IMG/VR virus record: IMGVR_UViG_3300044796_000055
Coordinates: 1-39,103 of that record
Direction: 5' to 3' (one strand)
Origin: a virus
DNA length: 39,103 nt
Made by a program: the position numbers and the translations under genes. Shown here one piece after another: positions 6,746-38,548 of this stretch (within the stretch, counting starts at the first letter, position 1; each line of letters opens with the position of its first letter). The notes under the pieces were generated by a model that worked only from the letters and a program-made list of their open reading frames with translations, ran no database searches and had not been told where the DNA came from.

Positions 6746-7249
6746 TCAGCCGAGCAGCGCTTCATACCCCTCGTCGGGCAGGATCGAGTAGATGTCGGGC
6801 CACTCGTGCAGCCACCCGGCGTAGCGCAGGGCCTCGCAGGCCAGGGCCGCACACTGCCAGCTCGGCTTGCGCGCGCTGCGGAAGCTCGGCACCCAGTCCC
6901 AGGTGACGATGTCGATCGCCATCGCCACGTCGGTGAGGAAGCCGTATTCGATCCCCACCTGCGCCTTGGCGAACTCGAGCAGCTTCGCGACGTCGCACTC
7001 GGGCGGTGGCGGCATGGTGACGGCGACGCCGCCCGGCGCCACCTCGTCGAGCCGGCAGGTCTCAGTGACGCCCTCCATCGTGGCCTGGATGACGAAGGGC
7101 ATCCCGTCGACGTCGACCAGGTCCGAGACGATGAACTTGTGGTTCCAGCGCGCGGTGCGGAACTTCAGCCACTCGCCGAGGCGGATGAGGCGCCCCATGA
7201 TCCCCGTGGTCCGCGCGAAGCCGATGTCGCCCGGATCGGCCGGGTTCAC
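6746..7249 (-). CDS. Permuted NlpC/P60 (YiiX-like) cysteine hydrolase
   Basis: 167 residues from GTG 7249 (GTGA overlap). The order of motifs fits the circularly permuted C40/YiiX class: GDIGF at 7-11, the His in WNHKFIVSDL (His37), then the Cys in SWQCAALACEAL (Cys133), the reverse of normal NlpC/P60. Such proteins cleave amide bonds in peptidoglycan or lipids. It follows the C39-like gene. It may be a wall hydrolase carried on the virion or an accessory lysin; the catalytic pair is a motif assignment by eye. Confidence 0.6.
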   Translation of the reverse strand: MNPADPGDIGFARTTGIMGRLIRLGEWLKFRTARWNHKFIVSDLVDVDGMPFVIQATMEGVTETCRLDEVAPGGVAVTMPPPPECDVAKLLEFAKAQVGIEYGFLTDVAMAIDIVTWDWVPSFRSARKPSWQCAALACEALRYAGWLHEWPDIYSILPDEGYEALLG

Positions 7250-8289
7250 AGCAGCCCGTGCGTGTACACCCGCAGGGCGTCCGCGATCAGTTCCTCGATG
7301 ACGTCGATGGCCTCGTGCTCCATCGCGGCGTCCGCCACCTTGTGCAGCCCGTGGAGGAAGCCCTTGATGTGATCGGGGACGGCCTCTATTTCGGCCTTGA
7401 GCTCCTCCCAGAGCGATTCGGCGGTGCTGGTGCCCGTCGGCGCCGCAGGAGCCGGAACGGGCGCAGGAGGCGTCGCTGCGGGCCGTATGGTGCCGTGCAC
7501 CGCGAGGAGCGCCGCGTCCATGGCCGCCCAGTTGATGTTCGGGTCTCCCCGCTTGCCGAAGACCCAGGCGTCGGTGACGTTGCGGTTCCGGTACTGGAGC
7601 ACGAAGGGCTGCGTGCCGCCCCAGGTGACCAGGACTCCGCCGCCCTCCCCGTCGCCGGCGACGACCAGCGTGTCGTGGCCTTCGCTCGGGTCCGGTCGGT
7701 CCCCCGGCCGCGATCCCCACGGGACGCGAGGGCTGGCCTCGAAGTCCGCCTCCGCGTCGTCGTCGAGGAGCTGGCCGATCGCGGCGACCTCGAACAGGTT
7801 CGCGTAGTAGTCGAGGCTCTTGATCGGGATCTCGGCGTACCAGTCGATCGCCCCGATCTTGTAGAGCCAGGCGAAGAGCGTGGCGTTGTCGACCCCCTGG
7901 TCCGGCTCATTGGCCGGCGCCGGCGGCGTGCCCGTCTCGCCGTTCGCGATGCCGTAGGCCCAGTAGGCCTCGGGGACGCTCCATCCGAAGGCGGCGAAGT
8001 ACGCACCGATCGCCTGTTCGAAGTCGCTGAGGACCTGGCCGCCGTGGTCGATCATGGCGATGCCGCAGTCGCCCATCCCGTCGGGGAATGCGGGCGGGTT
8101 CGTCGGGTCGGGCCCGTTGTTGTCCATGCCCCAGCTCGTGCGGCCGCCGGAGTGGTCGAACTTGAGGAAGGCGGTGGTGACGTCCTTCTTGCGGTCGTCG
8201 TGGATCAGATTCTCGATCGCGAGGCGCGGCTCGTGGCTCTCGCGAAAGATGCCTCGGCGCCCTGCGCTGCGGGTGGTCTCATCGGTCAT
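7246..8289 (-). CDS. C39/papain-like cysteine peptidase-type protein
   Basis: 347 residues, ATG 8289 with AGAGGAG upstream. The segment SWGMDNNG...MGDCGIAMIDH (Cys75) and the later GHDTLVVAGDGEGGGVLVTWG (His205, strand, Trp) follow the layout of a phage protein family with a papain/C39-like core. After a Pro/Ala linker (about 270-290) comes a helical C-terminal domain (SLWEELKAEIEAVPDHIKGF...). The family is found near lysis and tail genes in soil and actinobacterial phages. A peptidoglycan peptidase is the best guess; no substrate can be read from sequence. Confidence 0.55.
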   Translation of the reverse strand: MTDETTRSAGRRGIFRESHEPRLAIENLIHDDRKKDVTTAFLKFDHSGGRTSWGMDNNGPDPTNPPAFPDGMGDCGIAMIDHGGQVLSDFEQAIGAYFAAFGWSVPEAYWAYGIANGETGTPPAPANEPDQGVDNATLFAWLYKIGAIDWYAEIPIKSLDYYANLFEVAAIGQLLDDDAEADFEASPRVPWGSRPGDRPDPSEGHDTLVVAGDGEGGGVLVTWGGTQPFVLQYRNRNVTDAWVFGKRGDPNINWAAMDAALLAVHGTIRPAATPPAPVPAPAAPTGTSTAESLWEELKAEIEAVPDHIKGFLHGLHKVADAAMEHEAIDVIEELIADALRVYTHGLL

Positions 8290-8299
8290 GGGTGCTCCT

Positions 8300-8746
8300 C
8301 TAGGCGGATTGCGGGATCAGACTTACGACCGCCAAGGTTAACGCCACGGCGAGCAGCAGGGTGAGATAGACGCTGACGTAGCCGGCCAGTCCTCGGCGCT
8401 TGGTCCAGCCGATCCACCCGGCGACGGCCGCGCAGCCCCAGGCCGCGATGAACAGCGCCGGAGCCTTGGCGAAGAAGAAGAACGGCCAGATCGGGACCAG
8501 GGATCCGATGAGCGTGGCCACGAGCATCGTGCCGGCGACGGCGAGCCGCTCGCGCCAGGGTCCGTTGCCCTTCTCGTACTCGCCGGTCCCCATTGACACG
8601 CAGGCCGAGACGGCTGCGCCCAGTCCACCGACGGCGATCGCGCTCTCGGGCGAGTGGTGCAGCAGCAGCCCGAAGATCAGGCCGGTGATCGAGACCGTGC
8701 CGTCCCAGATTCCGAACACGCGCTCCTGGCGCTGCTCAGCCTTCAT
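8300..8746 (-). CDS. VIT1/CCC1-like five-helix membrane protein lacking the metal-binding loop
   Basis: 148 residues from ATG 8746. The head FGIWDGTVSITGLIFG and the segment AVGGLGAAVSACVSMGTGEY (SMGTGEY at 51-57) match the first two helices of the VIT1/CCC1 family of Fe/Mn vacuolar transporters, where SMgxGEY is conserved. Three further helices follow (about 69-91, 95-112, 120-145). Family members are usually about 230 residues with a cytosolic metal-binding domain between helices 2 and 3; here only about 12 residues (EKGNGPWRERLA) join them. It sits between lysin-type genes, where a holin is expected, so a repurposed holin or a reduced transporter are both possible. Confidence 0.6.
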   Translation of the reverse strand: MKAEQRQERVFGIWDGTVSITGLIFGLLLHHSPESAIAVGGLGAAVSACVSMGTGEYEKGNGPWRERLAVAGTMLVATLIGSLVPIWPFFFFAKAPALFIAAWGCAAVAGWIGWTKRRGLAGYVSVYLTLLLAVALTLAVVSLIPQSA

Positions 8747-9275
8747 GGGTCTGGTCGTGGCGCCCGATGGCGTCGAGAAGTTCGACCTTCGATCCCTCGG
8801 TGACGTGGGCGAGCTCTCTCGCGTCCTTGTCGAGCGCCAGCTTCACGTCAGTGCCGGCGATGACGATGTTCTGGATCATGGTGTGGATCTCGCCGACCTG
8901 CGACTCGGTACGCCGTGAGATCCCCAGCGCCTCGGCCGCGATGCCCTCGGTGCGCCTCGAGGTGCCGTTGGCCTCGTCCATGCGCTTTTCGAGGACGGCC
9001 TGGCCCCTGCTCACCCCGGCAACCTCAGAGGCCATGGCCCGCGTGGCGAGCTCGACGTCGTGCAGCTTCTCGGGCGCACCCACGACGACGCTGCCGTCGA
9101 TCTGCTTGCCGCCGTCGATCCAGAAGTCCACCGCGCGCCGGCGCTCGAGACGCTCTGCGTCGGCCTTGGCTCGCTCCTTGCGCTCCGGGTGGATGATCGC
9201 GCCGTAGATGCCGCCGGCCGTTCCGATGGCGGAGCTGACGACGCCGACCGCTATCCACAGGCCATCGGTGTTCAC
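8736..9275 (-). CDS. N-anchored coiled-coil protein (DUF2746-like, holin/lysis-region type)
   Basis: 179 residues from GTG 9275 (one-base overlap with the lysin stop). The N-terminal membrane segment LWIAVGVVSSAIGTAGGIYGAII is followed by a charged helical stalk (ERKERAKADAERLERRR) and a long coiled coil to the end. The layout resembles DUF2746 proteins next to endolysins in actinobacteriophages. It could help lysis (holin-like or spanin-like) or be a minor virion protein. It overlaps the VIT-like gene by 11 bases, so the two are co-translated. Confidence 0.6.
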   Translation of the reverse strand: MNTDGLWIAVGVVSSAIGTAGGIYGAIIHPERKERAKADAERLERRRAVDFWIDGGKQIDGSVVVGAPEKLHDVELATRAMASEVAGVSRGQAVLEKRMDEANGTSRRTEGIAAEALGISRRTESQVGEIHTMIQNIVIAGTDVKLALDKDARELAHVTEGSKVELLDAIGRHDQTHEG

Positions 9276-9880
9276 TATGGCCTCGGGTTCGGGTAGTCCG
9301 CGTCGGCGTATTCGGTCGGGTTCGCAGGGTGCGAAGCGGGCGCGGGCTCGAACTGCGTGCCGGTCCAGATGAAGATCGGCCAGCCGTTGTTGATCGCCAT
9401 CGTCGCCTCAGCCGGGTTGAGCAGTTTTACGAGCTTGGCGCGCTCGAGCTGCAGCGGCGTCGGGAACTGCGTGGCGATCGGAAGCGCCAGCGACGGCCTC
9501 GTGCGGAACTCCCAGGCATCGGTATTGAAGGGCTTGAGCCCGATCAGCGTCCCGGTCTCCTCGGCTTCGAAGACCCAGCCGGGCTTCGCGTACATCATGA
9601 CGTGGCCGGGGTTCGCCTCGCTCGGATCGCCCTGGATGAAGAGCCCGTCGCCCGGCTCATTGGGCAGCGCGCGGTCGTCGCAGGGCCACTCGCGGTACGT
9701 CGTCTCGGTCGGTCGGATCAGCGTCACGCCGACGTGCGCCCAGGCCGCGACGAAGAGCCCGTCGCAGTCGGCTCCCCCGCTCTGCGGCCACGTGCCGCCC
9801 CAGACGTAGGGCTTGCCGGTGAGGGTCGTTTCCGCCCAGGCCAAAGCCGCGGCGCCAGCATTCTCACGAGTGAAGGTCAC
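9275..9880 (-). CDS. NlpC/P60 endopeptidase (endolysin candidate)
   Basis: 201 residues from GTG 9880. Classical NlpC/P60 order: KPYVWGGTWPQSGGADCDGL with nucleophile Cys39, then NPGHVMMY with His93, then GWVFEAEETG as the third strand. These enzymes cut D-Glu-meso-DAP type bonds in peptidoglycan stems. The C-terminal 60 residues (QLERAKLVKLLNPAEATMAINNGWPIFIWTG...) may be a small wall-binding tail. Its place between tail-tip genes and membrane proteins makes it the most likely endolysin, although a virion-carried hydrolase is possible. The best AGGAG lies unusually far upstream. Confidence 0.75.
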   Translation of the reverse strand: MTFTRENAGAAALAWAETTLTGKPYVWGGTWPQSGGADCDGLFVAAWAHVGVTLIRPTETTYREWPCDDRALPNEPGDGLFIQGDPSEANPGHVMMYAKPGWVFEAEETGTLIGLKPFNTDAWEFRTRPSLALPIATQFPTPLQLERAKLVKLLNPAEATMAINNGWPIFIWTGTQFEPAPASHPANPTEYADADYPNPRP

Positions 9881-9918: not shown

Positions 9919-10806
9919 CTAGGCCATCATTGCGAATTGCATAGAGGCCACGGCGCCGAAGGCGAGCGCGTAGTAGAGGCCGCTTGCGGGCAGCGTCGTC
10001 GGGTGCCAGGTGATCCCGTCGTAGGAGTAGGCGGCCGCCGTCGAGGGGTCGGTGTTGACCGCGACGTAGACGCCGTCGCCCCAAGTGACGGTCTGCCAGG
10101 ACCCGCTCGGCATTGATCGCAGCGTCCACGTGACGCCATCGGGCGAGGTCATGGCGTACCCGGCGCCGGACGGGCTCACGGCCACGAACTGCCCGTCGGC
10201 GAACACGACGGAGGTCCAGTCGTGCCCCGGGCACGTCTGCGGCGTCCAGGTGGTCCCGTCGGGGGAGGTCGCAGCGACGCCGTTGCTCACGAGCACGAAC
10301 GTCCCAGCCCCCCAGGCAACGTCCTGCGCGGGCGAGGTAGTGACCGCCAGCGTCCACGTGACGCCATCGGGCGAGTAGGCGGCTTGAGCGCTGCCGAGGA
10401 CGGCCACGAACACGCTCCCGTTGTACGTCGCTGCTCCGCTGGAGAAGATTCCACCCGGCAGCGTGGCGGTGGTCCACGTCACGCCATCGGGTGAAGTGAA
10501 CACCATCCCCGGTCCGACATGAGTGTCTGTTTCGCCGTAGACGACGAAGTAGCCGTCCGAGAATTTCACCGACCCCCAGTAGTTGGCGACCGGAAGATTG
10601 TGCGTGCTCCACGTCACGCCGTCGGGTGAAGTGAAATAGAGAGTCCCCTTCCCGGGGCCAAGCGCCAACCACAGCCCAGCGCCGAAGGCGAGGTAGTAGA
10701 TGTTCGTGGCAGGTGACAGATCAGCGGTCCAGGTGATCCCGTCCGGCGAGGTGGCGGCGTCGGAAGACCCGTTCGCAATGGCGAGGAACTGCGTCGGAGT
10801 TGGCAT
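9919..10806 (-). CDS. Seven-bladed Asp-box beta-propeller tail protein
   Basis: 295 residues from ATG 10806 (TAATG overlap). The Asp-box motif SPDG(V/I/T)TWT occurs six times with a seventh variant (SYDGITWHP), spaced about 35-45 residues apart. Each is preceded by strands of the type G.FVAV. This predicts a seven-bladed sialidase/BNR-like propeller, but no sialidase catalytic residues are evident. Sugar or receptor binding at the tail tip is the likely role. The DNA around each motif (gtgacgccatcgggcga) is also repeated, suggesting growth by blade duplication. Confidence 0.75.
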   Translation of the reverse strand: MPTPTQFLAIANGSSDAATSPDGITWTADLSPATNIYYLAFGAGLWLALGPGKGTLYFTSPDGVTWSTHNLPVANYWGSVKFSDGYFVVYGETDTHVGPGMVFTSPDGVTWTTATLPGGIFSSGAATYNGSVFVAVLGSAQAAYSPDGVTWTLAVTTSPAQDVAWGAGTFVLVSNGVAATSPDGTTWTPQTCPGHDWTSVVFADGQFVAVSPSGAGYAMTSPDGVTWTLRSMPSGSWQTVTWGDGVYVAVNTDPSTAAAYSYDGITWHPTTLPASGLYYALAFGAVASMQFAMMA

Positions 10807-23672: not shown

Positions 23673-26552
23673 CTACGACGTGACGGGCATTACCAGGCAC
23701 CGGCAGTTCGGGTGCCCGGGGGGAACGTCGTCGCTGAAGTCGTGCGGGTTCGCCGCGGTCTCGTCCTCACAGTCGTCGCAGGCCTCGGCGTAGTCGTCCC
23801 AGTCCCACGCCGTGGCGCCGGCGCTCTGGTACTGGTCGACGCTCGCGGTGTTGCAGCCTCGGGTGGTCTCGGTCACGGCGATCGTGGCCGCGCGGGTCGC
23901 TGCCGCGATGCCCTCCTGCGGTGCGCCGGCCTCGCCGAGGAGCTCAACGATCCTGGCGCGCGCCTCCTTGTCGCCCAGGCCCTCGCTCATGGACTGCGCG
24001 ATCGCGTCGGCCATCCGGTCCTGGGTCGTGGCGTCGATGCCCTTGATGGTCATGCCGGCGTGCTCGAGGAGCGCGCGCATCCCCCCGCCGGCCACCTTGA
24101 GCGCGGCTGCGGGATCGCCCGGCGTCCAGGAGTCCCAGAAGTCCGAGCTGTAGCCGGCGACCACCTGGCCGATGCCGGCCGCGACGTAGGCCGCGTCGCC
24201 CATCTGCTCGATGCCGGCACGGGTGCCCTGCAGGCTGGCGTCGCCGTAGAGGTTCGTGAGGAGGTCCTGGAGGGGCTGGGGGTCGCTCGAGACGTGCTGG
24301 CTGATGGCCTGGCGGGCGAGCTTCTTGTTCGCGTCCTCGAGCGCGCCCTTGGTGACCTGCTTGTCCGGGTGCGCCAGGGCCTCGTGAACCGCGCCGTCGA
24401 TCCCGGTGTACATCTCGGCGATCGCCTTCTTGATCAGCGGCGCGTAGTGGTTCTCGATCTGCTTTCGCATCGCCTCGAAGGGATGCGCGGCCGCCTTAGT
24501 AGCTGAATTCCCTCGGCCTTTTGGGTCGTCGCTGACCGGCGCACCTGCTTCCACTCGGGCGGCCTTGTTGAGCTCGCCGGCCATCCGGGCGTTGACGTAG
24601 CTGAACTGGAAGTCGCGCCAGGTGGACTTCTTGTTGGTCCGGAGGCGCTTGAGCTCCTTGGCGCGGTAGCGCTCGAACTGGTTGAGCTCATTGAACGCCG
24701 CGGCCATCTTGGCGGCCTCGTCGCCTACTCCGCCAGCTTTCGGCGGCCCGCCTTCACCGGGATCCGCTTGGTTGCCAGGTGGGCCGTCTTGGTCCCCTTC
24801 GCCTTCGGTGCTGCCTTCTTCTTGCTCACTGGGCTCTCCTTTGGTGCCGGTGGGATCGCCGGCCTCATTCAGCGCAAGCATGCCCTGCAGGAACTGCGCC
24901 GGGCTCGGGCTGACGATCATGGGCGAGTCGGCCTCGGGGAACTCGTAGGGCGTGCGCCCGGCGTCGTCGCGCTGCTCATTGAGGGTGATGAAGCCGCTGT
25001 TCACCGCGATCTGGTCGGCCTGGTTCTGGGCCAGCTCGTCCTTGACCGAGTCGTTGTCGCTGAGGATGCAGGTCACGTTGACCGTGCCGTCGAGGTAGCG
25101 ACGGTTGAGCGAGTTGATGACGTCCTGGAAGAACTCGAGGTCCGGGATCTGGCTCACGACCTCGGCGCTCTGGGCCTCGCCGTCGCTCATGTTCTTGCCG
25201 CCCAGGCCGCTCTTGGGCGTCACGTTCAGCGCCGTCGGGGTGACGCCGAAGGGTGCCGAGAGCCGCTTGATCAGGAACTCGTCCCAGTCCGTCTTGTACT
25301 TCTCCGCCTCTTGCTGCATCTGCTCGGGCTCGAATCCCGCCGGCAGGAGCTTGACGTTGTTGCGCTCGCGGTTCTGGCCCCGGAGCTGGTCGTTGAACAT
25401 GCGCTCCCACTGGGCCATCTTGAACGGGTCGTCGCCGCCCTCGAGGCTGGTTTTCATGAAGGTCTTGGGCGTGGCGCCCAGGCGGTACTGGTCGAGGAGC
25501 CACTTCTGGCGCTCGAGGTAGATCGCGGCCCAGGGCAGGCACATCTCCACGGCGCTGTAGCCGTAGAGGCTGTCGGTGGACCTGTTCTGGACGAAGTAGC
25601 TGAGCTGGTCCTTGATGTAGTCGCCGGGGATGTTCCTGATGCCCTCGTAGAAGACGCCGTCGTCGACCGGGCTGGCCTGGTACTCGCCGCGCGGGAAGCC
25701 CCAGAGGATTTGCTGATAGGCGGGGAAGGGCGGCTTGGGGATGTCGCCGCGATTGTCGAGCAGGCACTTGATCGTCGGGCTGTCGATGATCTCGAAGCCG
25801 ATGACCTTCTTGGCGAGGTTGTAGCGCGGGTAGACGGGGACGCCGTCGTAGCGGTAGTGCTGGTTGCCGAACTCGGTCACCCACTCCGAGAAGCCCCGGT
25901 CGCTCTGCGGGTAGGGGTTCTCCCAGAAGTCCGTGAGGCGCTGGATCTCGAGGGCGAACTCCTCGCGGCCGAGGCGTGCGGCCTTGGCCCTCGAGCACTT
26001 CTCGCGCTGCATGATGTCGCTGATCGCCCGCTTGGAGACCGAGAAGGTGAGTTCCATCTTGACGAGCTCGCCGATCCGGATCTGGATGCAGCGCGCGATG
26101 ACGTCGCACTGGATCGCCAGCGAGCGCAGCACCGACCAGGGCGTCTGGCGGGCGGTGAGGTTGAGGTTCGTCCCGACCTCGTATTGCTGCTTGCGCGGGA
26201 GCGCCCGTCCGGTGGCCGGGTCGACGACGTCGATCGGCGCCGGCAGGAAGGGGTCGGCCGGCCCGAGCGGATCGTTGAACATCTCGTCCACGCGCGGCAG
26301 GGGCAGGTAGAAGAAGCCGGTCTGGGCCTGGCTCGCGCCGATCGAGGTCTTGGGCGCCGGCGTCACCACTGGCACGTTCACTACGGCTGTCGGAACCGAG
26401 GATCCGGCCAGTGGCGTGCCGGCAAGGCTTGGGCCCTTAAGCGCGTCCGCGTGGCCGCTCTTGTAGGCCGCGATGATCGCCTCGGCGAGGTCGCCGGTGC
26501 TCGGCGCGTCGTCGTGGAGCCCGTAGGGAGGCGGTGGTCCGTGCAGCGCCAT
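23673..26552 (-). CDS. Portal protein fused to a MuF-type head domain
   Basis: 959 residues from ATG 26552. Residues about 130-560 are portal-like: a clip/wing region with VLRSLAIQCDVIARCIQIRI, SLYGYSAVEMCLPWAAIYLE, and KRLSAPFGVTPTALNVTP. An acidic Gly/Glu linker (about 590-635) leads to a long helical region and a C-terminal MuF/phage-Mu-F-like motif: TETTRGCNTASVDQY, then EACDDCEDETAANPHDF and PPGHPNCRCLVMPV, with the Cys/His pattern seen in this domain. Portal and MuF are normally separate neighbouring genes. MuF is injected or scaffolds the head in other phages. Confidence 0.85.
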   Translation of the reverse strand: MALHGPPPPYGLHDDAPSTGDLAEAIIAAYKSGHADALKGPSLAGTPLAGSSVPTAVVNVPVVTPAPKTSIGASQAQTGFFYLPLPRVDEMFNDPLGPADPFLPAPIDVVDPATGRALPRKQQYEVGTNLNLTARQTPWSVLRSLAIQCDVIARCIQIRIGELVKMELTFSVSKRAISDIMQREKCSRAKAARLGREEFALEIQRLTDFWENPYPQSDRGFSEWVTEFGNQHYRYDGVPVYPRYNLAKKVIGFEIIDSPTIKCLLDNRGDIPKPPFPAYQQILWGFPRGEYQASPVDDGVFYEGIRNIPGDYIKDQLSYFVQNRSTDSLYGYSAVEMCLPWAAIYLERQKWLLDQYRLGATPKTFMKTSLEGGDDPFKMAQWERMFNDQLRGQNRERNNVKLLPAGFEPEQMQQEAEKYKTDWDEFLIKRLSAPFGVTPTALNVTPKSGLGGKNMSDGEAQSAEVVSQIPDLEFFQDVINSLNRRYLDGTVNVTCILSDNDSVKDELAQNQADQIAVNSGFITLNEQRDDAGRTPYEFPEADSPMIVSPSPAQFLQGMLALNEAGDPTGTKGEPSEQEEGSTEGEGDQDGPPGNQADPGEGGPPKAGGVGDEAAKMAAAFNELNQFERYRAKELKRLRTNKKSTWRDFQFSYVNARMAGELNKAARVEAGAPVSDDPKGRGNSATKAAAHPFEAMRKQIENHYAPLIKKAIAEMYTGIDGAVHEALAHPDKQVTKGALEDANKKLARQAISQHVSSDPQPLQDLLTNLYGDASLQGTRAGIEQMGDAAYVAAGIGQVVAGYSSDFWDSWTPGDPAAALKVAGGGMRALLEHAGMTIKGIDATTQDRMADAIAQSMSEGLGDKEARARIVELLGEAGAPQEGIAAATRAATIAVTETTRGCNTASVDQYQSAGATAWDWDDYAEACDDCEDETAANPHDFSDDVPPGHPNCRCLVMPVTS

Positions 26553-29928: not shown

Positions 29929-30140
29929 AGCTCCTCCAGCGGGTTCAGGATCATGGCGTGCGCCCAGTGCAGGGCCTCGGCGCTGGTGGCGTAGCCCTCG
30001 CGGACCACGCTGCCGTCGACCATCACGTCGTAGGTGCCGGCGCCCGTCTTGACGACCGAGTAGTTCTTGTGGGTCCAGAACTCGCTCTCCCCGTGGATCG
30101 CGTGGTTCCAGGCCAGCGGCTTATTGGTCATGTGTGCCAT
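29925..30140 (-). CDS. Unknown 71-residue protein
   Basis: ATG 30140 follows AAAGGA; an inner ATG three codons later is possible. A beta hairpin with TYDVMVDGSVVREGYATSAE and a helix (ALHWAHAMIL) suggest a small double-stranded-beta domain. The start region overlaps the end of the methyltransferase. Function unknown. Confidence 0.6.
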   Translation of the reverse strand: MAHMTNKPLAWNHAIHGESEFWTHKNYSVVKTGAGTYDVMVDGSVVREGYATSAEALHWAHAMILNPLEEL

Positions 30141-31405
30141 CGGTGTCCTTTCTTGGGACAGCGTACTGCGCCCGCTCGCCGGTCAGGTTCTCCCAGCGTG
30201 CGACGACGACGTCGACGTACTTCGGGTCGCTCTCGATCAGCCGGGCCGAGGCGCCCAGGAGCTCGCAGGCCACCATCGTGGATCCCGATCCCGCGAAGGG
30301 GTCGAGCACGATGTCCGCGACGCCGACGTTGTTCTCGAGGGTCCGGGCGATCAGGCGCACGGGCTTCATGGTCGGGTGCTCGGCAGAACGCGCCGGCTTG
30401 TCCTCGCGAACGACCGAGCTGGTGGCGCGCATCTCCTCGAGGATCTCCACGAGCTCCTCCTTCTTGAACTTGGCGAACGCGGTCTCGTCGTCGAGCACGG
30501 TGGCCCTGGTGCGTGGGCCGTGCCAGGTGTGGGCCGCGCCCGGGCGCCAGCCATACAGGATCGGCTCGTGCTGCCAGTGGTAGTCCTGGCGGCCGAGCAC
30601 GAAGGTGTTCTTCACCCAGACCAGGCACTGCTTGAGAAGCCAGCCCTCCTCGGTCATGGTTCGCCGGAAGACGCCCCCCCCCCGTATCGGAGTGACAGAC
30701 GTAGATCGCGCCGCCCAGCTTGGTCCAGCGCAGGGTGTTGGCGAAGAACCTGCGCAGGAACGCCTCAAAGGCCGCGGTGCTCTGGTTGTCGCCGGCGATC
30801 GTCAGGGCGTCCTCGGTGCCCCCGACGTAGTTCACGTTGTAAGGCGGATCGGTCCAGACGGCGTCGGCGTTGTCGCCCTGCATCAGGGCGGCGTAGGTCG
30901 CGGGGTCGGTGGCGTCGCCGCAGATGATCCGGTGGCGTCCGAGGGTGACGACGTCGCCCAGCACGGTGGTGGGGAGCGCCGGCAGGGGCGGGACGTCGTC
31001 GGGGTCGGCCAGCAGGACGTCGGGCGGTGGTCGCAGCTCGTCGAAGCCGAACTGGACCGTGTCCCAGCCGTTCGCCTCGAGCTCCCAGCGGGTGGCCTCG
31101 AGCTGGGGCAGGAGCCATTCGCTGAGTTCGGCGGTCTTGTTGTCGGCCAGCGCGAAGGCGCGGGCCCGGTCGTAGTCCCAGTCCTCGGGGACGCGCACGA
31201 TCCACAGGCTCTCCATGCCCAGCTCGCGTGCGGCGATCAGGGTGCCGTTGCCGGCCACCACGACGTTCGGGCCCCAGACGACGATCGGCTTGACCTGGCC
31301 GAAGGCCTCGAGCGATCGCATGAGCTCGGGGATTCCCAGCTCGTGGCCGCGAGCGTTGTTCGGGTCCAGGGTGAGGTCGTGGATGCTGATCGGCTCTGGG
31401 ATCAC
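30121..31405 (-). pseudogene. ParB-domain/beta-class DNA methyltransferase fusion, frameshifted at G10
   Basis: From GTG 31405 the zero frame gives a ParB/Srx-type N-domain (about 1-75: IPELMRSLEAFGQVKPIVVW, VVAGNGTLIAAREL) and then the start of a methyltransferase with motif IV DPPY (186-189). It runs to HSDT (residue 241) and breaks at ten G residues. The +1 frame continues VFRRTMTEEGWLLKQCLVWV ... PTMKPVRLIARTLE ... DPFAGSGSTMVACELLG and ends at 30121, which restores motif I. DPPY before FAGSGS is the beta-class order (N4-cytosine or N6-adenine). Removing one G gives an intact 427-residue enzyme, so this may be a sequencing indel or a phase switch rather than a dead gene. Confidence 0.8.
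30674..30683 (-). repeat. G10 homopolymer tract inside the methyltransferase
   Basis: On the minus strand ten G residues interrupt the gene exactly between the two reading frames; nine would join them in frame. Poly-G tracts of this length are classic contingency loci and also classic sequencing-error sites. Confidence 0.9.
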
Positions 31406-33736: not shown

Positions 33737-35035
33737 CTATCCGAGGGCCTGCTTCTCCACCTCGCTCAGGACGTAGCCCTGGCTCTCGAGGAAGATCAGG
33801 TAGTCCTTGTCCGCGGCGCTCAGGCGCCGGCCGTCGATGGTGTCCTCATGCTCGTCGATGAGCCGCTCGAGCAGGGCGCAGAAGGCCTTGTCGACGCTGA
33901 GGTCCTTCGCCGTCGATCGGCCCTCGCTGTAGAGGCCGTTGTCCAGGATGTCGACCAGGACGAACCTCTTCGCCGCGGCGTCGAGCCTGTGCCTGGCGTG
34001 TTGGCGGGCCCACTCGTAGCGGACGGAGGTCGCCGCCTCCCAGGCCTCGGCTCGCGCCGCCTCGAGCGCCCGGTTCGCCGCCTCGGCGGCTGTGTCGACC
34101 TTCACGGGCTCCTCGCGAAGGTGCCGGCTGAAGGTTCGCTCCGGCTTCGCGCTCAGTTTGTGCCCGTTGGCCTTCCAGTTGGTGCACCAGTACTGGGCCG
34201 TCGGCGCGTTGGAGCTCCAGGACGCCGCGGTGATCATGGCCGCGTGGCCGGGACACGTCTTGTGCGTCGCCAGCGTGAGCTTCTTGCCCGCCGAGGTCGT
34301 GAGGTTGACGATCGGCTCGTGCTCGATCGGCGGCCCGTGCCAGTCGAAGTTCTTGAGGATCGGGGTCGCGCCGAGCCTCTCCTTGATCTCCTTCATCTGG
34401 CGCTCGCGCTTGTGGCGCAGTTCGATCTCGGCGATCGCGTGATCCAGCCGGGCGGGCTGGTACTGCAGGGTGTACTCGATCGTCGCGAGGTCCTTCTTGA
34501 CGTCGGCGTAGGTGGCGAGGGCGGCTTGCTGGATGATCGTCAGCGGGTGCTGGTCGGCCAACTTTTTGGCCTTGGTCCGGATCTCCTTCGGGGCCGCGCT
34601 CAGGGCCTTGGCGGCCTTCACCTCGTGGTCCCTGATCGAGAGGGCCTTGGCGATCTCCTCGTCGCTCACCTCGAGCCCCGCTAGGCGCCCGACCGCGTCC
34701 GCGAGGTCGCTCGGGGTCAGGTCGACGCGGCTCGTGTTCTCCGCCAGTCCCTGGAGGGCCTCGTGCGCCTCGGAGGAGGTGCTGGCGACGATCGCCCCGA
34801 TGGACGTCCACCCGAGGCCTTCGGCGGCCGCCAAGCGTCGGTGGCCGCTGATCAGCAGGTAGTTCTCGGATCCCTCGAGCTGGCGCACCAGGATCGGCAC
34901 GAGCTGGCCCAGGCGCTCGAAGCTCTCGGCGAGCTCGTCGACGCGGGTCATGACCTTCCGGGCGTCGAGCGGATTGACCTTGATCAGGCCGACCGCGATG
35001 TCCTGGACGGAGCCCAGGGTGGTGATGGTGCTCAT
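33737..35035 (-). CDS. parB: ParB-family DNA-binding protein
   Basis: 432 residues from ATG 35035 (ATGA overlap, AAGGGGGAATC). The N-domain has the ParB boxes LISGHRRLAAAEGLGW and ENTSRVDLTPSDLADAV, followed by a helix-turn-helix (VSDEEIAKALSIRDHEVKAA). The C-terminal half adds a Cys/His cluster (KTCPGHAAM...YWCTNW) and long helices instead of the usual dimer domain. No ParA gene is present, so plasmid-type partition is doubtful. The protein may bind the 15-bp palindromes of this genome, as a centromere-like or regulatory site. Confidence 0.8.
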   Translation of the reverse strand: MSTITTLGSVQDIAVGLIKVNPLDARKVMTRVDELAESFERLGQLVPILVRQLEGSENYLLISGHRRLAAAEGLGWTSIGAIVASTSSEAHEALQGLAENTSRVDLTPSDLADAVGRLAGLEVSDEEIAKALSIRDHEVKAAKALSAAPKEIRTKAKKLADQHPLTIIQQAALATYADVKKDLATIEYTLQYQPARLDHAIAEIELRHKRERQMKEIKERLGATPILKNFDWHGPPIEHEPIVNLTTSAGKKLTLATHKTCPGHAAMITAASWSSNAPTAQYWCTNWKANGHKLSAKPERTFSRHLREEPVKVDTAAEAANRALEAARAEAWEAATSVRYEWARQHARHRLDAAAKRFVLVDILDNGLYSEGRSTAKDLSVDKAFCALLERLIDEHEDTIDGRRLSAADKDYLIFLESQGYVLSEVEKQALG

Positions 35036-35364
35036 GATTCCCCCTTCTCTGACGGCACGATCTGCGCTCGTCGTCGATCTATCGCGCCGACCCAGGCGCA
35101 GAGAACGGCCTGGCACTGGATCAGCTCGGCGCGCAGGAGGCCATCGTCCGCCTCGGCCAGGGCTTCAAAATACTCCTCGGTCAGGATCTTCTCCCAGGTG
35201 GTGGTGCCGTCGAGCTCGGAGGCCTGGCAACGGAGCCGGGAGTACTCGCGCATGGCGAAGAACTCAGGGGCGCCGGTGCCGTCGGGCCAGTCTTGCTGCC
35301 CCCACTTCTCGTCCTGGCGCCGGCGCTCGGCACGGACCTCCTCGAGGATCGTCTCGTCGCTCAC
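35032..35364 (-). CDS. MazG-like helical phage protein
   Basis: 110 residues from GTG 35364 (GTGA overlap). The pattern ERRRQDEKWGQQDWPDGTG, then TTWEKILTEEYFEALAEADD and LRAELIQCQAVLCAWVGAI then DRR, is that of a widespread small phage family related to all-alpha NTP pyrophosphatases (ExxE pairs). A nucleotide-pool or (p)ppGpp-type role is inferred from the fold only. It lies between exonuclease and ParB. Confidence 0.6.
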   Translation of the reverse strand: MSDETILEEVRAERRRQDEKWGQQDWPDGTGAPEFFAMREYSRLRCQASELDGTTTWEKILTEEYFEALAEADDGLLRAELIQCQAVLCAWVGAIDRRRAQIVPSEKGES

Positions 35365-36434
35365 TCGACGATCTCCCTCTTGGCCTTGTCCAGCATCATC
35401 CGGTGGCCCGACTTCTGGATCTCGTACTGCTCCTTGAGCTCGGGGTGGTCGGCCAGCAGCGCCTTGGTGTCCACGCTCACGCCGTCCTTGGTTTTCTTGT
35501 AGGTGACCAGGGTCTTGCCGTTCCAGGTCAGCGCCTCCGCCTCCCCGACCATCAGCGCGAGCTTGGCGTAGAGCTTCTTGGCGATCGCGTCGGTCTCGTC
35601 GCTGAGCGCCTTGGCCTCGTGCCAGTCGTAGTAGACGCTGAGCTCCTCGCGCGTCATGGCGATCGACTTGCCCTCCACGCTGTTCGGGTACATCGCCTTG
35701 AGCGCCGCGAAGGTGGCCGGCGAGCCGTCGGGCTCGGGCGGCTCGTCGCGCTCGACGAATTCCCAGAAGGAGAATTCCTTCTCCTCGAGCTCGGCGACAT
35801 CAGTCTCGTCGTAGATGCGGTGGCGCACCACCAGGCCGGCGTCGTCGCGCTCGATGTCGGTGCCGCCGATGAGCGCCGCGAAGACGACGTTGTCGATGCC
35901 GGTCACGGCGCAGTAGTGCAGGCCCTGCAGGGCGTAGTTGTACGGCACCCCGTCGTCCTCCCACTCGTAGGTCGAGCCGCGGCTGGTGATCGCGCCGGTC
36001 TTGATCTCGAGGATCGACACGACGTTCGGCGGTGGCGTCTCCTCGAGCCAGTCGGTGACGCAGCCCACACCGAGCGGGTCGATGCAGATGACGAAGTCCA
36101 GGTTCGCCAGCATGAAGGTGAACGCGGTGCTGCGAAGCATCACCGGCCAGTTGTAGACGGCGACGCCGTAGGCCTCGGCGTAGGCCTCGGCGATGGTGCG
36201 CTCGAGGCGGTGCCCCCAGTTCGTGGCCCTCGTCGATCGGTCGCTGCGCTCGCGGCCGGTCTTTTCCGCCCAGAGGCTGAAGCGGCTCTTGTACCTCGAG
36301 GTCTCCATGATCGCGGCGACGTCGCTGCCGCCGATGCCCTTGGCGCGCATCTCGTGCCAGCGCTCGAGTTCGGCGTCGTCCTCGAGCACGGTGTCGGTTC
36401 GTCCGACCACCTCGCAGTGTTCACTCAGGTCCAT
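35361..36434 (-). CDS. YqaJ/lambda-exonuclease-family nuclease
   Basis: 357 residues from ATG 36434 (CGAGGAGCAGAC). GIGGSDVAAIM (33-43) and TNWGHRLERTIAEAYAE (71-87) are the family's N-terminal motifs. The catalytic D-ExK is Asp113 (NLDFVI) with Glu143/Lys145 (ILEIKTG). This enzyme resects one strand so that the ERF protein at 3014-3742 can anneal the other. The two partners sit in different transcription units, joined across the genome ends. A palindrome (36452-36466) precedes the gene. Confidence 0.88.
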   Translation of the reverse strand: MDLSEHCEVVGRTDTVLEDDAELERWHEMRAKGIGGSDVAAIMETSRYKSRFSLWAEKTGRERSDRSTRATNWGHRLERTIAEAYAEAYGVAVYNWPVMLRSTAFTFMLANLDFVICIDPLGVGCVTDWLEETPPPNVVSILEIKTGAITSRGSTYEWEDDGVPYNYALQGLHYCAVTGIDNVVFAALIGGTDIERDDAGLVVRHRIYDETDVAELEEKEFSFWEFVERDEPPEPDGSPATFAALKAMYPNSVEGKSIAMTREELSVYYDWHEAKALSDETDAIAKKLYAKLALMVGEAEALTWNGKTLVTYKKTKDGVSVDTKALLADHPELKEQYEIQKSGHRMMLDKAKREIVE

Positions 36435-36470: not shown

Positions 36471-36890
36471 TCAGCAGCCGTCGTAGCGCGTCCACTGGCC
36501 GAAGCCGTCCGCGCGCCAGATGGCGGCCGCCACCAGCTCCTGCTCGTGCGGGGTGGCCTGCCAGACGTGGATCCGGGCCGGGACGTGCGCCGCGGCCTGG
36601 TGCGCCGCCCAGGTCGCCTGCTCGATCTGGAAGATCCCGCTCGAGGCGCCGGGCCGCGCGTCGTTGTCCTTCAGGTTCAGGTGCGCCCATGTCGATCGGC
36701 TCTCCGCCCAGATGATGCAGGTGAAGGTCTCGATCGCTGCCACGGGCAGGTTCATGATCGGGTTAGGTCCGCCGGCTGGCCCGTTGAGCTTCCAGGTGGT
36801 CGTGGTGGTCTTTCCGGATCCCAGGGCCGGCGTGGCGGCCAGGGCGATCAGTGCTGCGATGGTGATGGTGGTGAGGCACTTCGTGAGCAT
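36471..36890 (-). CDS. Secreted Rpf/lysozyme-like protein
   Basis: 139 residues from ATG 36890 (TGGAG upstream). A longer TTG start at 36920 is less likely because it would put ten charged residues before the signal peptide. The signal peptide is MLTKCLTTITIAALIALAAT with a site near ALG-SGK. The mature part has the lysozyme-like core of resuscitation-promoting factors/transglycosylases: CIIWAESRSTW with Glu63, ASSGIFQIEQATW, and the final FGQWTRYDGC. It would cut peptidoglycan glycan strands outside the cell. It is in the early/accessory part, far from the lysis genes, so host-wall remodelling is as likely as lysis. Confidence 0.7.
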   Translation of the reverse strand: MLTKCLTTITIAALIALAATPALGSGKTTTTTWKLNGPAGGPNPIMNLPVAAIETFTCIIWAESRSTWAHLNLKDNDARPGASSGIFQIEQATWAAHQAAAHVPARIHVWQATPHEQELVAAAIWRADGFGQWTRYDGC

Positions 36891-36936
36891 TTTGCTCCAG
36901 TCGTCGACGGCTAGGCACAAGCGGACTGCGTGTCGG

Positions 36937-37662: not shown

Positions 37663-37779
37663 CATGCCACGCTCGCACCATGTCGCGGACCTCATTGTGC
37701 TTGGCGATTGGAGATACCACCCATTCGGAGGACGTAAGACGCTCACCCATTGAGTGCCCCGCTCACTGATCAGCACCAT
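37645..37779 (-). CDS. Unknown 44-residue protein
   Basis: ATG 37779 lies inside the end of the hexapeptide gene A (17-base overlap). The product begins MVLISERGTQWVSVLRPPNG and ends WCERGMDQKES. It has no strong ribosome site of its own, so coupling would be needed. The shared 3' end with the next gene supports it as real. Confidence 0.45.
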   Translation of the reverse strand: MVLISERGTQWVSVLRPPNGWYLQSPSTMRSATWCERGMDQKES

Positions 37780-38548
37780 CAAGGACGGCCCCGCCGCATT
37801 TCCGGCAGAACGGTCCCGGCTCGTCACCGTGGCATGGAGACGTAGAGACTTGAATCTCGGGCTCTGCTTCCGGCTCTGTCAATCCGGTGTGCTTCCCCTC
37901 GTAGACCCGAGCGTTGCCGGAGACCCAAGCGTTGCCGGAGACCCAAGCGTTGCCGGAGACCCAAGCGGTGCCGGAGACCCGAGCGTCGTCGTAGACCTGA
38001 GCGGTGCCGTAGACCTGAGCGGTGCCGCCGACCCGAGCGTTGCCGCCGACCCGAGCGGTGCCGTAGACCCGAGCGTTGCCGCCGACCCAAGCGTCGCCGA
38101 AGACCCAAGCGTCGTCGTAGACCCGAGCGTCGCCGGAGACCCGAGCGTTGCCGGAGACCCAAGCGTCGCCGTAGACCTGAGCGTCGTCGTAGACCCAAGC
38201 GGTGCCGTAGACCTGAGCGTTGCCGGAGACCCGAGCGTCGCCGGAGACCCGAGCGGTGCCGCAGACCCAAGCGGTGCCGGAGACCCGAGCGGTGCCGCAG
38301 ACCCAAGCGGCGCCGAAGACCCGAGCGTTGCCGCCGACCCAAGCGGTGCCGCAGACCTGAGCGGTGCCGTAGACCTGAGCGTTGCCGCCGACCCGAGCGG
38401 TGCCGGAGACCCAAGCGGTGCTCTCGACGGTCGCCGTCTCCGCGACCCATCCGCCTTCGCTCTTGTCGGGGTTGACGTGACGATGAGCCGGGACGGGTCC
38501 GTTCCCGTCCTCGAAGTCGAATGTCAGGTGCGTGTCCAGTTTCTTCAT
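37763..38548 (-). CDS. Hexapeptide-repeat beta-helix protein, copy A
   Basis: 261 residues from ATG 38548, which overlaps the stop of copy B (ATGA). A 40-residue head (DFEDGNGPVPAHRHVNPDKS, GGWVAETATVE) leads into 29 hexapeptides (AWVSGT, ARVGGN, AQVYGT...), about ten turns of a left-handed parallel beta-helix at 18 residues per turn. A C-terminal tail follows (HTGLTEPEAEPEIQVSTSPC then HGDEPGPFCRKCGG) with a possible zinc knuckle. Copies A and B share head and tail almost exactly and differ in the repeat order, consistent with duplication and unequal exchange. The role is unknown. No signal peptide is present. Confidence 0.85.
   Translation of the reverse strand: MKKLDTHLTFDFEDGNGPVPAHRHVNPDKSEGGWVAETATVESTAWVSGTARVGGNAQVYGTAQVCGTAWVGGNARVFGAAWVCGTARVSGTAWVCGTARVSGDARVSGNAQVYGTAWVYDDAQVYGDAWVSGNARVSGDARVYDDAWVFGDAWVGGNARVYGTARVGGNARVGGTAQVYGTAQVYDDARVSGTAWVSGNAWVSGNAWVSGNARVYEGKHTGLTEPEAEPEIQVSTSPCHGDEPGPFCRKCGGAVLDGADQ
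37900..38421. repeat. 18-bp degenerate tandem array in copy A
   Basis: Twenty-nine 18-bp units coding hexapeptides. The segment around 38170-38290 matches the segment at 38985-39103 of copy B unit for unit, so the two arrays can recombine. Confidence 0.9.

Follow-up and report, generated by a model that had tools for sequence, protein, structure and literature searches.

How a protein resembling iron and manganese transporters comes to lie among the lysis genes of a virus is the question raised by a small gene at positions 8300-8746 (minus strand) of IMG/VR record IMGVR_UViG_3300044796_000055, all 39,103 nucleotides of which were analyzed and are referred to here as the window. A preliminary description had placed a VIT1/CCC1-like membrane protein there, at the position expected of a holin. 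The membrane step of lysis is poorly understood in actinobacterial phages; lysis takes at least two holin-like proteins, whose individual roles are open, according to the excerpted text of PMC13056207.

The gene starts with ATG and encodes 148 amino acids with five transmembrane (TM) helices. The relationship to VIT/CCC1 was borne out by a profile search, in which the protein matched Pfam VIT1 (PF01988) with an E-value of 2.3e-10 and 41.1 bits, the cut-off being 28.1. The match consists of two stretches of the 214-position profile, 4-53 (helices 1-2) and 134-201 (helices 3-5), and the profile positions between 53 and 134, which represent the cytosolic metal-binding domain (MBD), are absent from the protein. 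The SMGTGEY signature previously noted in helices 1-2 occupies residues 51-57. Matches to NCBIfam were weak and below cut-off (TIGR00267, the iron exporter MbfA and one more model), and phmmer against PDB sequences returned VIT1 (6iu3, E 0.87), one unrelated entry and nothing else. PHROG held no family for this protein, for its relatives L006, L043 and L085, or for the full-length VIT L008.

Selection on the gene was assessed with two relatives of similar identity: L043, found by scanning IMG/VR with the VIT protein (record 3300038412_000078, 61% identical), and L006, from an actinobacterial genome (60% identical over 148 residues and equally short). Identity at codon positions 1, 2 and 3 was 70, 73 and 48% to L006, and 70, 74 and 48% to L043; across all three genes, the third positions are 44-48% identical and the first two 70-74%. 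The preservation of first and second positions over third indicates that 8300-8746 is a selected protein and not a chance frame.

The AlphaFold2 model, built from an alignment of 48 VIT domains (A5), had a pLDDT of 92.9 and a pTM of 0.85; an earlier three-row alignment gave a pLDDT of 50.2 and was discarded. Its helices span residues 3-29, 34-59, 64-86, 94-115 and 120-143. Helix 2 thus ends at residue 59 and helix 3 begins at 64, and the MBD is cleanly missing between them, as had been proposed. In Foldseek the top two PDB entries were VIT1 structures, 6iu3 and 6iu4 (E 5.9e-3 and 6.6e-3; TM-score on the query 0.80-0.81), with nothing in the PDB reaching E 0.001. VIA-align superposed the model on 6iu4 with Z 18.8 and an rmsd of 2.0 Å over 146 of 148 residues, and on 6iu3 with Z 18.5 and 2.0 Å over 145 residues; the next row had Z 9.5. 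Rows for photosystem I PsaL (Z 7.7-9.5) and MgtE (Z 7.8) were taken as a common helix arrangement. The Pfam score, the model and the fold match together rule out a chance similarity, and the 8300-8746 product is a true VIT1-family protein.

Lysine and arginine residues are concentrated at the N-terminus and in the loops between helices 2-3 and 4-5 (three each), with none in loop 1-2, one in loop 3-4 and none at the C-terminus. This distribution predicts an N-in/C-out topology, as in VIT1. The C-terminal tail (LIPQSA) is uncharged.

The structural alignment, which pairs residues 3..148 of the window protein with 31..251 of EgVIT1 (6iu3/6iu4) at an offset of 28, and the phmmer alignment both place D15 on D43 and M52 on M80, the TM metal ligands; the structure prediction with metal sites that had been recommended for this gene yielded a VIT1 fold with both ligands in place. 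G12, D15 and M52 are the three columns that never vary across the 48 rows of A5, the diverged viral copy L085 among them. The proton-relay residue E72 is not kept, A44 taking its place. That column is non-acidic in 48/48 rows (G 24, A 16, T 5, V 1, N 1, M 1), so these bacterial and viral relatives commonly lack E72. The acidic sites at the mouth (E32/D36 in EgVIT1) correspond to E4/E8 in the window protein and in L006, D4/E8 in L043 and G/Q in L085. In EgVIT1, D43, M80 and E72 are essential, and in MtVTL8 so is D59, the equivalent of D43, as given in the consulted part of PMC10794610. The retention of D15 and M52 speaks for a metal site that has probably been kept.

The window protein accordingly shares with EgVIT1 the five-TM fold and both ligands, and differs from it in having no MBD, in A44, and in its location in a viral lysis cassette. 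Two attributes of a VIT proper (plant group I type), an MBD with its Glu/Met ligands and E72, are absent from it. It does fit the VTL-like definition drawn from PMC10794610 in excerpt, of VIT helices with the Asp/Met ligands and no MBD. MtVTL8 and the nodulin-21-like VTLs have no MBD, keep equivalents of Asp59 and Met96, and have Gly, Ala or some other residue that cannot be charged in place of E72; they transport iron in yeast tests (PMC10794610, same excerpt). They are plant proteins, and the acidic pair E4/E8 of the window protein is not found in them. Virus-encoded proteins with a minimal VIT-like fold and no MBD also occur in giant viruses: BFVD A0A5J6VL61 (145 aa, Megaviridae) matched with TM-scores of 0.81/0.83 and A0A0N9QR04 (152 aa, CeV-01B) with 0.65/0.63, and PMC7162819, a source seen here in part, mentions a VIT1 tree in a legend. 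These are viruses of eukaryotes, with no phage lysis cassette. Minimal VIT-like proteins of giant viruses are thus already known by fold; for a VIT in a phage lysis cassette, no report was found in the limited literature collection searched.

The closest bacterial counterpart, L006, was the single close relative obtained from one genome scan, and lies on an 8,653-base contig of the actinobacterial MAG UBA9676. From frames judged by eye, we take its neighbors on one side to be nitronate monooxygenase-like, luciferase-like oxidoreductase and PP2C-like genes, and those on the other to be acyl-CoA dehydrogenases and a thiolase. VITs of this type are rare: a BLAST-level search of 394 genomes of the class found one only in the genome that carries L006. 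Profile searches matched 79 of 396 genomes of the phylum, all but L006 weakly and most in helices 1-2 only, and 42 of 150 genomes of the family in the same manner, a region in which full-length VITs match too. Bacterial groups without an MBD were nevertheless present among the matches: L044, twelve proteins of a roughly 180-residue type, and VITs with an N-terminal extension that is ferritin-like by eye. Like the window protein, L006, L044, the roughly 180-residue group and the ferritin-VIT fusions resembling MbfA have a short loop between helices 2 and 3 and the same invariant residues; L006 differs in lying outside a lysis cassette, and the MbfA-like proteins in their extension. Judged from these sequences, phages did not create the short form, which is widespread. 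L006, L044 and the other short bacterial VITs rule out loss of the MBD as a phage specialization; with them and the plant VTLs in view, the earlier suggestion of a transporter converted to another use finds no support in that form.

Searches of phage records gave little. In tblastn against 50,697 of them, no match was found for the VITs of the window (E 0.01), L006 (E 1), L043 (E 1) or L085 (E 0.1), and the full-length L008 had three matches, of which two are to Acinetobacter phage MD-2021a and carry the annotation 'VIT family'; VIT as a common phage gene is ruled out by these results. A plasmid search with the window VIT found no match. In the tree, the window, L043 and L006 proteins group together (96/96) and L044 joins them (97/90). 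A clade of window, L043 and L085 gave p 0.035 in the AU test without L006 and p 0.178 with it. The branches of L085 and L044 are long and drew a warning of false joins from the program; when the window group was removed, L085 had no starred place, its nearest neighbor being the full-length VIT L031. A viral clade of the three without L006 is therefore disfavored, with long branches in play; we claim neither one nor several acquisitions by viruses, nor a direction of transfer between phage and the L006 lineage.

The surroundings of the gene were then considered, all on the minus strand. The first gene of the cassette (9275..9880) encodes an NlpC/P60 hydrolase (Pfam NLPC_P60, 5.8e-12), the endolysin candidate, with 55% and 47% identical genes in the related viruses L002 and L003. 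It is followed by a gene (8736..9275) for a 179-residue protein with one N-terminal hydrophobic stretch, a basic region and a charged tail (38% DEKRH); no lysine or arginine precedes the TM segment and eight lie in the 20 residues after it, and an N-out/C-in topology is predicted. This protein is 37% identical to the product of the gene directly after the GH25 gene in L078. Next comes the VIT gene, which begins within 8736-9275 and overlaps its last 11 nt (4 nt in L043), so that the reported overlap with an N-anchored gene was correct. No ribosome-binding site was seen by eye before the VIT gene; the following gene starts after GAGGAG. Translation of the VIT may thus be coupled to that of the single-TM protein. 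The following gene (7246..8289) encodes a conserved, unnamed protein with the motif ESHEPRL (alignments A2/A4; 12 viral loci), C39-peptidase-like in appearance by eye only; Pfam gave nothing above its cut-off for it, and PHROG had no family. The gene after it (6746..7255, start approximate) has no Pfam hit and keeps the same place in L002. A hydropathy scan found the VIT to be the only multi-TM gene of the window's late region. Holins are usually small, with one to four TMs and a charged tail, and the VIT protein, with five helices and an uncharged tail, does not follow that pattern.

Searching through the ESHEPRL gene gave twelve viral loci and one further record, L099. Among whole related records, Pfam VIT1 was found in 3 of 15 distinct ones (window, L043, L085), as tallied over three sets: one of three (L002 and L003 without it), two of thirteen (L002 and L003 repeated) and none of one. 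The records may be fragments, L074 and L075 are alike in the stretch read, and all three VIT viruses are metagenomic. The L085 match (32.8 bits) and that of L043 are over the Pfam cut-off, and the L085 and window VITs share 28 of 140 aligned residues. No VIT was found outside the lysis-type slot in the 15 records.

The window, L002, L003, L043, L078, L079 and L085 have a common gene order: hydrolase, charged-tail single-TM protein, membrane slot, ESHEPRL gene. In L079 two short frames replace the charged-tail gene, and in L003 the gene in the ESHEPRL place has diverged and was placed by position only. By Pfam, the hydrolase is NlpC/P60 in the window, L002, L003 and L079 and a GH25 lysozyme in L078; the genes at this position in L043 and L085 had no Pfam hit. 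The swap of NlpC/P60 for GH25 at the first position supports the hydrolase as the likely endolysin. The slot itself holds a VIT in the window and L043, and a single-TM protein alone in L002, L003, L078 and L079; the L078 frame continues open from the slot protein into the ESHEPRL gene. In L085 the slot (5252-6001), directly before the ESHEPRL gene, is one 249-residue frame that encodes first a VIT domain and then the slot's single-TM protein. BLASTP of this tail matched slot proteins of L079 (2e-6) and L074 (2e-7), and the wider network of matches agrees with a fusion. A gene of 61-73 residues with one or two predicted TMs precedes the slot in L002, L079 and L085. L085 has a two-TM gene and a single-TM gene besides its VIT, which makes the VIT there an addition and not a replacement. 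The slots of the window and L043 have no two-TM partner; another membrane-like frame (10123-10719) lies a few genes farther downstream in L043. Adjacent to the endolysin candidate and among late-type genes, with synteny in L043 and L085, the VIT gene has a lysis-cassette placement that this cross-virus comparison supports, in agreement with the original assignment of the membrane-protein slot.

The remaining loci vary. L074, L075 and L081 have a single-TM protein before the ESHEPRL gene and no hydrolase seen upstream, L081 being cut by the contig end, and in L080 and L082-L084 the ESHEPRL gene has other surroundings. Proteins of 165-173 residues with four predicted TMs lie about 0.8 kb before the ESHEPRL gene in L082 (4735-5232), L083 (4727-5224) and L084 (4754-5275); they are possibly four-TM holin-like proteins, and that of L082 had no Pfam hit. 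A C-terminal module of about 50 residues (LVxLT...A..NGWP...W.G..F...YA) was recognized by eye in the window hydrolase (9275-9880), in L043 at 6842-7597 and inside the L043 ESHEPRL protein (8481-9674). The string KGNGP, at residues 59-63 of the window VIT protein and in the L002 and L003 single-TM proteins, was taken as chance. A prophage search with the ESHEPRL alignment in the 396 phylum genomes gave one weak hit, and the host is not proven.

The closest described arrangement is that of two F1 mycobacteriophages, in which an N-out/C-in one-TM protein, LysF1b, and a two-TM protein, LysF1a, are jointly needed for efficient lysis; in many M. smegmatis phages a LysF1b-like protein is accompanied by a two-TM or four-TM one (PMC13056207, in the portion available). 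The likeness lies in a one-TM protein of this topology and a multi-TM protein beside the endolysin. The 8736-9275 product has the single N-terminal TM, the N-out/C-in topology and the 30-50% charged tail given for LysF1b-like proteins, and is longer than their 92-150 residues; for it and the slot proteins the resemblance is one of topology and charge. It is a candidate LysF1b-like lysis protein. The multi-TM partners have two or four TMs and are not described as VIT-like in that portion of PMC13056207. No clear holin was found elsewhere in the window, as the earlier holin proposal would require; the overlapping single-TM protein is itself a holin-like candidate.

Family, fold, kept TM ligands, cassette position in three viruses and fusion in one lead us to suggest, with a little less than even confidence, that the lysis cassette has taken up an MBD-less VIT-type metal transporter to serve as its multi-TM membrane partner. 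The protein would belong to the MBD-less VIT/CCC1 branch shared with bacteria. Its start codon inside the single-TM gene, without a ribosome-binding site of its own by eye, suggests that it is made late and together with that protein. It would form a VIT-like dimer in the host membrane, where it may still bind, and probably move, Fe2+ or Mn2+, perhaps against protons, the kept ligands arguing that metal still matters. At lysis it would act as partner of the N-out/C-in single-TM protein, standing where other actinobacterial phages use a two-TM or four-TM holin-like protein. The uncharged tail, the occurrence in only three viruses, one of them with a strongly diverged copy, the status of the L085 VIT as an addition and the L006 relative outside lysis all count against this reading. 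The protein could instead be a metal-homeostasis moron, a working Fe2+/Mn2+ exporter acquired from a bacterium and placed in the lysis operon so as to be expressed late, but uninvolved in lysis itself. Both TM ligands are kept in all viral copies, the 60%-identical L006 sits among metabolic genes of a chromosome, plant MBD-less VTLs transport iron (PMC10794610 and PMC7540006, in the parts consulted), and infection by phage WC1 alters host metal genes including a host VIT (PMC10986025, likewise in part). All three viral VITs nevertheless occupy the same lysis-type slot, one of them fused to the slot's own protein, and none lies elsewhere in the 15 records, and we regard a moron as rather unlikely.

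If the VIT scaffold merely oligomerized and permeabilized the membrane, without transport, it would be a holin in the ordinary sense, as its cassette position, its being the only multi-TM gene of the late region, and the missing two-TM partner in the slots of the window and L043 might suggest. The ligands have persisted amid wide change (two of the three invariant columns over 48 rows, against the low identity of the window and L085 proteins), the fold remains closely VIT1-like and there is no charged tail, which make a scaffold-only holin improbable. The rarity of the gene among related records and the great difference of L085 would suit a recently acquired host gene, without effect and kept by chance; purifying selection between window, L043 and L006, the same place in two viruses and the fused domain in a third make such a passenger most improbable. 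The lysis-partner reading can be extended to propose that a divalent-metal transporter was recruited for lysis by phages on more than one occasion, that a VIT with an intact metal site works with, or fused to, a LysF1b-like protein, and that lysis is timed or triggered in part by a flux of metal, or of metal and protons, through this defined transporter instead of by a nonspecific hole. We consider this extension unlikely, more so than the moron.

A soil-type phage would in either case carry a stripped-down iron/manganese exporter with a metal-binding site among its host-bursting genes. A lysis role, if true, would be the recruitment of a solute transporter for lysis, and a cassette protein with a transporter fold and metal site would offer a template for the multi-TM partner, with D15 and M52 as targets for mutation. 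If its role were confined to metal export, the gene would serve metal homeostasis while being carried by a phage, and the literature searched contains no phage report of that kind.

Several other window genes, all on the minus strand, are of separate interest. A 149-residue protein (36471-36920) has an N-terminal hydrophobic stretch and, by eye, a lysozyme/transglycosylase-like SGIFQIEQATW; it had no Pfam hit. Two ParB-like genes lie at 30128-31405 and 33737-35116, one of which matches a DNA methyltransferase PHROG over its N-terminal half. An Erf-like annealing protein (3014-3742) and a RecE/YqaJ-like exonuclease (35361-36434) are encoded near opposite ends of the record. The 959-residue portal protein (23673-26552) has a C-terminal head-morphogenesis (MuF-like) domain, as in Arthrobacter phage Sonali, and the product of 37763-38548 combines YdcK beta-solenoid repeats with a bactofilin-like match.
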